From Rhizobium aethiopicum (GTDB taxonomy: Bacteria; Pseudomonadota; Alphaproteobacteria; Rhizobiales; Rhizobiaceae): a stretch of DNA of 64,000 nucleotides. The stretch covers positions 1 to 64,000 of the forward strand of contig NZ_JACIFV010000019.1 in assembly GCF_014197535.1 (NCBI RefSeq), in the 5' to 3' direction. This document shows, piece after piece, positions 12,247 to 28,727 of this stretch (its first letter is position 1; each line of letters begins with the position of its first letter). The notes beneath the pieces were generated by a model. That model searched no databases. It saw nothing but the letters and a program-made list of their open reading frames with translations, and was not told the origin of the DNA. The position numbers and the translations under genes are program-made.

Positions 12247-13005
12247 TCAGGTCTTCGACACCGAAAAAGTCAGCCTGGCGTCGCCGAAGAGGATATCGAT
12301 TTCGCCGGGTTCGGGCAGTTCGACGGCGCCGCTCAACGTGCCCGTCGTGATCAGCGCGCCTGCCTTCAGCGATGTTTCCGGACGCAAGCCGTCATTGGCG
12401 TAGTCCACCAGCCAGGTGAGAACGTCGCCCTTCGGATGCTCTGCCGGGCCATCATAGATGGTGCGGCCGGCATGGGTGACCTTGAGCGGCGTGCCGCCGG
12501 CGGTATCGACAAGGCTGTCGTCGAGCTTCGGACCGAGCACATAGCCGCTATTGCCGAGGCGGTCGGCGGCAAAGAGCAGGAAGGAAACGCTGCCGCTTTC
12601 CCTGACGGCGCTGACCAGCAGTTCGGCGCCGAGATGGACAGTGGAGATCGCCTCGACCACTTCGGCGCGGCTGTAGGGCCTGCCCGTGCGGATCGGCAGG
12701 TCCTTGCCGAGGCGCACGGCGATCTCGGTTTCGAATTTCAAGCCGGGATACCAGGGGATGTCAGCACCGGAGACCGATTCGGCATAGGGATGCAGCGGAC
12801 CGCTGACGGCCTGGCCTTGCGGCGAGACGGTCACCTTCCATGCATTGCTGGAAATGCCATCGGCCGCGGCGAGGAAATGCTGCGCTTCCATCGCCTGATG
12901 GAGGTCGGCCGGCGACAGAAAGGTGCTGGTCGCCTCCTGTGTGCCGGCCTGGCGCAAGCTGTAAAGCCTGGCTGCGAGGGCGCGCGGATCGAATGCTTTT
13001 GTCAT
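12247..13005 (-). CDS. 2-keto-4-pentenoate hydratase-like / fumarylacetoacetate hydrolase-family protein
   Basis: A protein of 252 residues resembling MhpD-type hydratases and decarboxylases of aromatic meta-cleavage pathways. The core segment is PWYPGLKFETEIAVRLGKDLP, and the C-terminal stretch LKAGALITTGTLSGAVELPEPGEI resembles the family's GD.I.TGT.SG region. The start at 13005 has a GGAGAC site upstream, and a start 11 codons further up is less likely. It is not clearly part of the rhamnose pathway. It lies just downstream of rhaK on the same strand, with about 80 nt between them. Substrate unknown. Confidence 0.7.
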   Translation of the reverse strand: MTKAFDPRALAARLYSLRQAGTQEATSTFLSPADLHQAMEAQHFLAAADGISSNAWKVTVSPQGQAVSGPLHPYAESVSGADIPWYPGLKFETEIAVRLGKDLPIRTGRPYSRAEVVEAISTVHLGAELLVSAVRESGSVSFLLFAADRLGNSGYVLGPKLDDSLVDTAGGTPLKVTHAGRTIYDGPAEHPKGDVLTWLVDYANDGLRPETSLKAGALITTGTLSGAVELPEPGEIDILFGDARLTFSVSKT

Positions 13006-13086
13006 GCTGTCTCCTCGACCTGATTTTCGAGGTGCCACACTAACCGCAAGCCGGCGGGGAACAAGGGGCGCGCCTGGGAAAAGCTG

Positions 13087-20337: not shown

Positions 20338-20357
20338 TGGGCTCCTCCTCTTGTCAT

Positions 20358-20400
20358 ATTTATTTCGTATCCGTTAAAGGCTGTCAATCACAAACGATCA
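20358..20400 (-). promoter_or_regulatory. rhaR-side promoter with operator-like repeat
   Basis: On the minus strand, TGATCGTTTGTGATTGACA occupies 20400-20382. Its last six bases, TTGACA, are a perfect sigma-70 -35 element. An AT-rich AATAAAT begins 17 nt further on, as a -10 candidate near 20364-20358. The TGATCGTTT part is the mirror image of the repeat on the rhaD side. A repressor bound there would cover the -35. Confidence 0.65.
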
Positions 20401-20410
20401 TAAATTTTCA

Positions 20411-20427
20411 TATTGCGCTGCACAATA
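20411..20427. promoter_or_regulatory. Central palindrome of the rha control region
   Basis: TATTG at 20411-20415 and CAATA at 20423-20427 form an inverted repeat around CGCTGCA. Its centre (20419) practically coincides with the centre (20418) of the two outer 19-bp repeats. It could be an activator site shared by both promoters or a third operator. No assignment is possible from sequence. Confidence 0.4.
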
Positions 20428-20435
20428 ATCGAATT

Positions 20436-20478
20436 TGATCGTTTTCGATTGACAAGCGCACTTTTGATGCGCGATACC
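20436..20478 (+). promoter_or_regulatory. rhaD-side promoter with operator-like repeat
   Basis: TGATCGTTTTCGATTGACA lies at 20436-20454, matching the opposite-strand repeat at 17 of 19 positions. It ends in TTGACA (-35, 20449-20454). An 18-nt spacer leads to GATACC (20473-20478), a weak -10 candidate. Transcription from here would start about 50 nt before the rhaD ATG at 20536. Confidence 0.62.
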
Positions 20479-20535: not shown

Positions 20536-22632
20536 ATGGCGGCGAACGTCCGGCTTCTGGAAAACCGGTGGGATGATGGTTACGCGGCAGGCCTCGATGA
20601 GCCCGGCAAGCTGCTCTATCGCTCCAATCTGCTCGGCGCCGACAAGCGCATCACCAATTACGGCGGCGGCAACACCTCGGCAAAGGTGATGGAAACCGAT
20701 CCGCTTGATGGCGGCAAGGTCAAGGTTCTCTGGGTCAAGGGTTCGGGCGGCGATGTCGGCACCATCAAGCTCGACGGTTTCGCCACGCTCTACCAGGACA
20801 AGCTGGAATCGCTGAAGGGCATCTACAAGGGTATCGAGGACGAAGACCGCATGGTCGGTTTCTTGCCCCACTGCACCTTCAACCTGAATGGTCGCGCTGC
20901 TTCGATCGACACGCCGCTACACGGCTTCGTGCCGTTCACCCATGTCGACCACATGCATCCCGACGCGATCATCGCAATCGCCGCCTCGAAGAACTCCAGG
21001 GAATTGACCAGGCAGATCTTCGGTGACGAGATCGGCTGGGTGCCCTGGCGCCGTCCGGGCTTCCAGCTCGGCCTCGATCTCGAAGCCTTCGTAAAGGCGC
21101 ACCCGAACGCCAAGGGCGTCGTGCTCGAAAGCCATGGTCTCTTCACCTGGGCAAACGACGCTAAGGCCTGCTACGAACTGACGCTCGATATCATCAACAA
21201 GGCGATCGTCTGGTTTGCTGAGAAGACCGAAGGCAAGACGATTTTCGGCGGTGCGCTGACCCATAGCCTGCCCATCAGCGAGCGCCGCGCCATCGCCGCC
21301 CGGCTGATGCCGGAGATCCGCGGCCGCATCGGCAAGCAGGAGCGCAAGCTCGGTCATTTCGACGATCAGGGCGCCGTGCTCGAATTCGTCAATTCCAAGG
21401 ATCTGCGCCCGCTCGGCGCGCTCGGCACCAGCTGCCCGGACCATTTCCTGCGTACCAAGATCCGCCCGCTGATCGTCGATTTCGACCCGGCCAAGCCGGA
21501 TGTTGACGCAGTCGTCGCCGGCCTCGATCAGGCGCTGGAGGATTACCGCGCCGATTACGCCCGCTATTACAACGACTGCAAGCATAACAATTCGCCCGCC
21601 ATGCGCGACGCCAATCCGGTCATCTTCCTCGTTCCCGGCGTCGGCATGCTGTCCTTTGCCCGCGACAAGGCAACGGCCCGCATCGCCAGCGAATTCTACG
21701 TCAACGCCATCAACGTCATGCGCGGCGCTTCGACGGTTTCGGAATATCAGGGCCTGCCGGAGCAGGAAGCCTTCGATATCGAATACTGGCTGCTCGAAGA
21801 GGCGAAGCTGCAGCGCATGCCGAAGCCGAAGAGCCTTGCCGGCCGCGTCGCCTTCGTTACCGGCGGCGCCGGCGGCATCGGCCGAGCGACGGCCGCCCGC
21901 CTCGTCGGCGAGGGCGCCTGCGTGGTGCTTGCCGATATCGATCAGGCAGCACTCGAAAGCACAGAGGCCGATTTCGTCAAGAAATACGGCGCTGACGCCG
22001 TACGCAGCGTCCGGCTCGACGTTACCAAGGAAGATGCGGTGATCGCCTCCTTCGCCGAAGCTTCGGTCGAATTCGGCGGCATCGATATCCTCGTCTCAAA
22101 TGCCGGCATTGCCTCTTCCGCGCCGATCGAAGCCACCGAGCTTTCGACCTGGAACCGCAATATCGATATTCTGGCGACCGGCTATTTCCTGGTTTCGCGG
22201 GAAGCCTTCCGTCTGTTCCGCCGTCAGGCGCTCGGCGGCAACATCGTCTTCGTCGCCTCGAAGAACGGTCTCGCCGCTTCGCCGAATGCGTCGGCCTATT
22301 GCACGGCAAAGGCCGCCGAAATCCATCTCGCCCGCTGCCTGGCGCTTGAGGGGGCCGATGCCGGCGTCCGCGTCAACACGGTCAACCCGGACGCTGTTCT
22401 GCGCGGTTCGAAGATCTGGAGCGGCGAATGGCGCGAGCAGCGCGCCGCCTCTTCGAAGATCGAGGTTGACGATCTCGAGGAACATTACCGCAAGCGTTCG
22501 ATGCTGAAACTCAATGTGTTTCCGGAGGATATCGCCGAGGCGATCTACTTCCTCGCATCGGACCTGTCGGCCAAATCGACCGGCAACATCATCAACGTCG
22601 ATGCCGGCAACGTGCAGAGCTTTACGCGGTGA
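20536..22632 (+). CDS. rhaD: Bifunctional rhamnulose-1-phosphate aldolase / alcohol dehydrogenase
   Basis: A fusion protein of 698 residues. The N-terminal class II aldolase domain has the zinc-binding HVDHMH at residues 136-141 and the conserved NYGGGNTSAK near 41-50. The C-terminal short-chain dehydrogenase domain has TGGAGGIG at 442-449, SNAG, and the catalytic Tyr588/Lys592. The aldolase would cleave rhamnulose-1-phosphate to dihydroxyacetone phosphate and lactaldehyde. The dehydrogenase half probably handles lactaldehyde or a rhamnose-derived aldehyde. The ATG at 20536 has GGGAGGATG before it, and an upstream in-frame start at 20413 lies inside the promoter region and is rejected. Confidence 0.92.
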   Translation: MAANVRLLENRWDDGYAAGLDEPGKLLYRSNLLGADKRITNYGGGNTSAKVMETDPLDGGKVKVLWVKGSGGDVGTIKLDGFATLYQDKLESLKGIYKGIEDEDRMVGFLPHCTFNLNGRAASIDTPLHGFVPFTHVDHMHPDAIIAIAASKNSRELTRQIFGDEIGWVPWRRPGFQLGLDLEAFVKAHPNAKGVVLESHGLFTWANDAKACYELTLDIINKAIVWFAEKTEGKTIFGGALTHSLPISERRAIAARLMPEIRGRIGKQERKLGHFDDQGAVLEFVNSKDLRPLGALGTSCPDHFLRTKIRPLIVDFDPAKPDVDAVVAGLDQALEDYRADYARYYNDCKHNNSPAMRDANPVIFLVPGVGMLSFARDKATARIASEFYVNAINVMRGASTVSEYQGLPEQEAFDIEYWLLEEAKLQRMPKPKSLAGRVAFVTGGAGGIGRATAARLVGEGACVVLADIDQAALESTEADFVKKYGADAVRSVRLDVTKEDAVIASFAEASVEFGGIDILVSNAGIASSAPIEATELSTWNRNIDILATGYFLVSREAFRLFRRQALGGNIVFVASKNGLAASPNASAYCTAKAAEIHLARCLALEGADAGVRVNTVNPDAVLRGSKIWSGEWREQRAASSKIEVDDLEEHYRKRSMLKLNVFPEDIAEAIYFLASDLSAKSTGNIINVDAGNVQSFTR

Positions 22633-28032: not shown

Positions 28033-28454
28033 TCATAACAAGCGGTGACGCGCTCCGATGAGGCTGCAGGCTTTTGCCAGCCCCTTGTCCAGCGTGACGA
28101 GCGTGGCGTCGCTATCGATTGCGACGGCGAGATGCAGTGCATCACCGGCACGAAGACCGATATTGAACTGTTCGATCATTCGCGCCGCTTCGATGAAGTG
28201 CGCCCGCGATATCGGCAGGCACTCGAAGGTCGTCGAACATAGTTCCTTGAACAGGGCCAAAGCTTTGCTGCGATCGGCCGGATCGATCTGTCCGTTTCTC
28301 GCCTTGAGCGCGATGGCGCTCGAAAATTCGGTTATCGTCCAGCTGCTGACGGCGATCTCCTCGGATCGAAGTTCCGCCAGCCATTGCTGCACGTCGTCCG
28401 TGCGGGTTTCGACCGTCCAGGCGGCGACGAGGGCTGATGTGTCGATGTAAAGCA

Positions 28455-28455
<1 letters not shown>
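28033..28455 (-). CDS. VapC-like PIN-domain toxin
   Basis: A PIN-domain ribonuclease of 140 residues. The four acidic residues of the active site are visible: Asp5 (MLYIDTSALV), Glu43 (ITEFSSAIAL), Asp105 (LRAGDALHLA) and Asp123 (TLDKGLAKA). The ATG at 28455 overlaps the antitoxin stop by one base as TGATG, the usual coupling for such pairs. A TTG one codon earlier is not needed. It is likely an mRNA- or tRNA-cleaving toxin held by the antitoxin encoded upstream. Confidence 0.9.

Positions 28456-28727
<272 letters not shown>

Follow-up and report, generated by a model that had tools for sequence, protein, structure and literature searches.

How are two rhamnose operons that diverge from one intergenic region kept under common control? 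The rhaR-rhaD locus of Rhizobium aethiopicum raises this question within the window analyzed here, a 64,000-nucleotide stretch of contig NZ_JACIFV010000019.1. A sequence-only reading had proposed that a single DeoR-type repressor, RhaR, switches both operons from a mirror-symmetric pair of operators, with an activator possibly bound between them.

Flanking genes and their regulation

The control region lies between the first genes of the rhaRSTPQUK and rhaDI operons, whose names and operon logic follow PMC9025865.

19525..20337, minus strand: rhaR, DeoR-family repressor (HTH_DeoR and DeoRC by Pfam), first gene of the rhaRSTPQUK operon
20536..22632, plus strand: rhaD, bifunctional rhamnulose-1-phosphate aldolase/dehydrogenase (NF006189 and TIGR02632 above cut-off), first gene of rhaDI

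Both Pfam domains of RhaR, PF08220 (DeoR HTH) and PF00455 (DeoRC sensor), score above cut-off. Fusions in both rha operons respond to RhaR, and the R. leguminosarum rhaD and rhaP fusions are kept repressed by S. meliloti RhaR (PMC9025865). The proposal of one DeoR-type repressor for both operons is thus borne out by domain content and by published repression of both. Since induction by rhamnose needs neither the transporter nor RhaK (PMC9025865), rhamnulose-1-phosphate is disfavored as the inducer; the RhaR of C. aurantiacus, also of DeoR type, responds to rhamnulose according to the available text of PMC3870299. Elsewhere in the window, a FAA_hydrolase-fold protein is encoded directly after rhaK (12247-13038), and a minus-strand ORF at 28033-28458 resembles, as judged by eye, a PIN-domain (VapC-type) toxin of a toxin-antitoxin pair.

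An inverted repeat that ends in both predicted -35 boxes

A repeat search recovered the proposed pair of opposed 19-nt arms, which are 89% complementary, lie 35 nt apart and span 73 bp in total.

20382..20400, minus strand: left arm of the inverted repeat (repeat search)
20436..20454, plus strand: right arm of the inverted repeat (repeat search)

The claimed match of 17 of 19 positions holds, and it is the best that any gapless 19-bp inverted pair attains in this intergenic region, compared with 11 to 15 for the best pairs in 100 dinucleotide shuffles. The pattern TGATCGTTTNNGATTGACA has exactly 2 matches in the 6.49-Mb genome, both in the rhaR-rhaD region, and a whole-genome search with the looser pattern TGATYGNNNNYGATTGA returns the same two places alone; the reversed control of TGATCGTTTNNGATTGACA gave zero matches in the genomes listed. 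The arms are the sole pair of such sites genome-wide. Both were also said to end in TTGACA, which can be read directly at 20387-20382 (minus) and 20449-20454 (plus).

20382..20387, minus strand: predicted -35 box TTGACA of the rhaR promoter (direct reading; near-invariant; overlaps the outer RhaR half-site)
20449..20454, plus strand: predicted -35 box TTGACA of the rhaD promoter (direct reading; near-invariant; overlaps the outer RhaR half-site)
20359..20364, minus strand: candidate -10 of the rhaR promoter, AATAAA (17 bp from TTGACA; conserved A/T at -54 to -59 from the dyad)
20472..20477, plus strand: candidate -10 of the rhaD promoter, CGATAC (17 bp from TTGACA; conservation peak at +53 to +59)

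A promoter scan returned no full sigma-70 match; TTGACA is perfect on both sides, and CGATAC and AATAAA are weak hexamers below the scan threshold. Further conservation peaks lie 53 to 59 bp to the right of the dyad and 52, 55, and 59 bp to its left, which are the -10 positions for a 17-bp spacer, and the rhaR transcription start is predicted near 20351. For S. meliloti, a table in the available text of PMC12542648 lists the rhaR site at a distance of 90 from the ATG and of 77 from the mapped start; for the rhaD site, the distance to the ATG is 131. We take these distances as measured from the far end of the motif; if so measured, the intergenic region is 200 bp, typical of divergent rhaR-rhaD loci, and the S. 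meliloti start lies 67 bp from the dyad, where TTGACA with a 17-bp spacer predicts it.

Anatomy of the predicted RhaR operators

On the rhaD side, base conservation in 42 non-redundant sequences peaks at TGATYG half-sites that start 8, 18, and 28 bp from the dyad; the rhaR side mirrors them, and the outermost half-sites merge with TTGACA. The imperfect direct repeats of 10- to 11-bp period expected of a DeoR-family RhaR operator are therefore present, and we infer that RhaR contacts these bases.

20385..20390, minus strand: predicted outer RhaR half-site, TGATTG (10-bp periodic conservation peaks)
20395..20400, minus strand: predicted middle RhaR half-site, TGATCG (conservation around the dyad)
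20405..20410, minus strand: predicted inner RhaR half-site, weak, TGAAAA (conservation; much weaker than the right inner site)
20426..20431, plus strand: predicted inner RhaR half-site, TAATCG (conserved at +8 from the dyad)
20436..20441, plus strand: predicted middle RhaR half-site, TGATCG (conservation around the dyad)
20446..20451, plus strand: predicted outer RhaR half-site, CGATTG (conservation around the dyad)

Each arm thus consists of direct repeats of a 10-bp unit: the rhaD side carries three of them, and the rhaR side two strong copies and a weak one. This tandem TGATYG unit replaces TGATCGTTT, which had been taken for the operator unit and is ruled out as a recognition unit, because the sequence between half-sites is free to vary from genus to genus. 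Loci L104, L113, and L120 carry an altered spacer between half-sites in both arms (GAAAC or similar for GTTTN), a parallel change that we rejected as proof of coevolution with RhaR, as the spacer varies widely at other loci. Of the 46 informative loci, 40 have a weaker inner half-site on the rhaR side than on the rhaD side, in agreement with the rhaRS transcription seen in the uninduced state (PMC9025865). No RhaR footprint was found in the literature searched.

Conservation and helical phase of the layout

RhaR orthologues were identified in 183 of 395 genomes of the family and in 72 of 297 in the order sample. Among the rhaR upstream regions extracted, 247 of 257 have divergent rhaR and rhaD. 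Both arms are kept in 240 of these 247 loci, by a search that demanded near-TGTCAATC and near-GATTGACA ends, so that invariance of the outermost bases arises partly by selection and 7 loci were lost; the span is 73 bp in 215 of the 240. An alignment of the gap across Rhizobium had been suggested as a check, and the layout recurs there and beyond the genus. With its 2 genome matches, the predicted RhaR site is confined to the rha operons and conserved upstream of orthologues, and the layout is conserved far beyond Rhizobium.

The sequence between the arms has strongly diverged, and its length is fixed. Spans other than 73 bp (72, 74, 83, 84, 94, 105, 125, and 52) nearly all differ by about n × 10.5 bp, preserving helical phase; the mean resultant at 10.5 bp is 0.975 over six span classes, with p of about 0.003 by the usual formula if the six are taken as independent. 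Looping or cooperation between the arms had been proposed as suited to the 35-bp gap. Spacing of 73 bp or whole turns fits such a same-face interaction but does not prove it, as added repeat units could do likewise: the 10 bp gained in genus g87 consist of an additional rhaD-side repeat, and helical-phase indels could stem from duplication of the 10-bp repeat instead of from selection. The arms might accordingly be independent, their fixed 73-bp span being inherited or set by back-to-back polymerases rather than by RhaR bridging. One arm by itself already covers a -35 box, and repeat additions of the g87 kind account for some spacing steps. However, length is held in a strongly diverged sequence, the spans of 94, 105, 125, and 52 bp keep phase, and genus g41 still has 73 bp after losing the central core described below. 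Independence of the arms is therefore a serious reading that we nevertheless consider somewhat doubtful.

Two groups depart from the common layout. In six f16 genomes (L241, L248, L251, L253, L256, and L258), the gap is 94, 105, or 125 bp, in helical phase, and by inspection the arms enclose two or three PhaR-like cores. In genus g204 (L237, L239, L244, L282, and L283), RhaR is about 70% identical, and these loci have no adjoining divergent rhaD and no arms upstream, the switch being rearranged.

A predicted PhaR/AniA site at the dyad

An inverted repeat TATTG...CAATA had been placed at the common center of the arms. It is present at 20411-20427, but its center, 20419, is one base off the dyad (20418). 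The palindrome truly on the dyad is TGCGCTGCA, at 20414-20422.

20414..20425, plus strand: predicted PhaR/AniA site TGCGCTGCACAA (palindromic core 20414-20422 centered on dyad 20418)

This site fits TGCRNYGCASMA, the PhaR/AniA consensus deduced from B. diazoefficiens footprints, and is identical to the footprinted phaP4 site of that species (PMC6201568, available text). The consensus matches 115 times in the genome, 3.4 times as often as its reversed control. Of 51 non-redundant loci whose span is 72 to 74 bp, 30 have a PhaR core with at most one mismatch centered precisely on the dyad; in the shuffled gap, such a core is expected anywhere in 1.7%. Genus g69, a group of close relatives, has nearly the S. 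meliloti 21-mer, with the core centered exactly on the dyad at a span of 73 bp; a search of genus g95 did not find this 21-mer. The available text of PMC12542648 reports a PhaR motif and a weak gel shift with His6-PhaR for the S. meliloti rhaD-rhaR region, and lists RhaD in the proteome as not regulated or unassigned to a module; growth without rhamnose could hide a PhaR effect on RhaD. In C2 of the R. aethiopicum genome (L147, L153, L154, and L156), more consensus matches lie between genes that, from their translations alone, are likely to concern exopolysaccharides or sugar nucleotides, in line with the S. meliloti PhaR regulon.

The center as the site of an activator finds no support as worded, since it matches the PhaR/AniA consensus and the known targets of PhaR are mostly repressed by it. 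PhaR could nevertheless activate here: from a position about 67 bp upstream of the two starts, it would recruit polymerase or displace RhaR from the inner half-sites, which overlap its AT-rich flanks. Binding near -67 would be usual for an upstream activator. The 21-bp PhaR motif extends into the inner RhaR half-sites at ±8, which leaves room for competition or activation, and some PhaR targets look activated; yet only 7 of the 50 motif-bearing PhaR promoters belong to activated genes, most direct targets being repressed (PMC12542648, available text), and we consider activation unlikely.

Co-occurrence of PhaR and the core

PhaR is encoded in the R. aethiopicum genome at C3:198607-198786 (PF07879 and PF05233), adjoining a thiolase gene. 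Among genomes with divergent loci, the exact core occurs in 102 of 124 that bear PhaR, some PhaR-bearing genomes thus being without it, versus 0 of 13 that lack PhaR (Fisher p 2.8e-9, a value that overstates independence, as the PhaR-less genomes form only two clades, genus g41 and family f6). The independent evidence for a link between core and PhaR amounts to about two loss events. In g41, a Rhizobiaceae genus, PhaR is absent from all five genomes tested, and the four with rha loci hold the arms at 73 bp with the core lost. The 73-bp spacing is therefore independent of PhaR, and g41 offers a clean natural case in which PhaR and its site are gone and the RhaR geometry stays.

The consensus match and this co-occurrence displaced CRP, LacI, or another activator as candidates for the center. 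That some other regulator with a PhaR-like site binds the palindrome is very improbable: TGCRNYGCASMA is short and its genomic matches are many, but the core is missing in every PhaR-less genome, the matches well exceed the reversed control, and the corresponding fragment is shifted by S. meliloti PhaR (PMC12542648, available text).

Proposed mechanism

Sequence, conservation, gene content, the published repression by RhaR, and the published S. meliloti PhaR gel shift together point to a model that we consider probable, in which RhaR represses both operons from one DNA face and PhaR adds polyhydroxybutyrate (PHB)-dependent control from the midpoint. The 73-bp element would be a control region common to the two divergent operons. 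RhaR would occupy the 10-bp repeat arrays, each running into a -35 box, and without rhamnose polymerase would be blocked at both promoters. The half-sites, about ±10.5, 20.5, and 30.5 bp from the dyad, would share one helix face, and for this reason RhaR molecules bound to the left and right arms probably touch across the center. The weaker rhaR-side arm would let some RhaR be made in the uninduced state.

PhaR (AniA), which acts as a sensor of PHB, would bind the dyad palindrome, equidistant from both promoters. When PHB is scarce, PhaR would be free and most likely strengthens repression, a sign that we infer from the repression of most of its direct targets (PMC12542648, available text); when PHB granules form, PhaR would be taken away. 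More tentatively, the assembly may act as a phase-locked RhaR-PhaR-RhaR nucleoprotein switch, in which PHB abundance, acting through dyad-bound PhaR, would establish or disrupt the bridging by RhaR and thereby set the rhamnose response of both operons, in a layout kept across much of the order.

Relation to known systems and meaning for rhizobia

In E. coli, rhaSR-rhaBAD likewise places two divergent rhamnose operons under one intergenic region, where a local regulator for the sugar is paired with a global one for carbon. The likeness to R. aethiopicum is in this arrangement; the proteins are unrelated, E. coli using AraC-type activators and CRP, and R. aethiopicum a DeoR repressor and PhaR. 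The RhaR (DeoR) regulon of Rhizobiales (Richardson 2004; Rodionova 2013, PMC3870299) has the same regulator, the same divergent rhaRSTPQUK and rhaDI operons, and 10- to 11-bp direct-repeat operators, a direct-repeat RhaR motif having been predicted earlier for the order. The available text of PMC3870299, its logo figure aside, contains no mirror arrangement, three repeats per side, -35 fusion on both sides, fixed phase, or central site for a second regulator. The PhaR/AniA sites of S. meliloti (PMC12542648) and B. diazoefficiens (PMC6201568) share the consensus, and the S. meliloti rhaD-rhaR region is listed with its weak shift; in their available text it is treated as one weak PhaR target, and dyad position, conservation, and joint loss with PhaR are unreported.

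The RhaR motif (as a prediction) and the PhaR site (by S. meliloti gel shift) were thus known before. What appears new is their conserved joint geometry: the literature searched, figures aside, yielded no account of the exact mirror composite, of its phasing on the helix, of how deeply it is conserved, or of its disappearance along with PhaR. Use of rhamnose has an effect on nodule competition in both R. leguminosarum and S. meliloti (PMC9025865). PHB is a main carbon store of rhizobia, and an exact, conserved match to the PhaR site on the dyad makes a coupling of storage to sugar directly testable. The arrangement suggests a single switch at which the storage of carbon is tied to the use of sugar.
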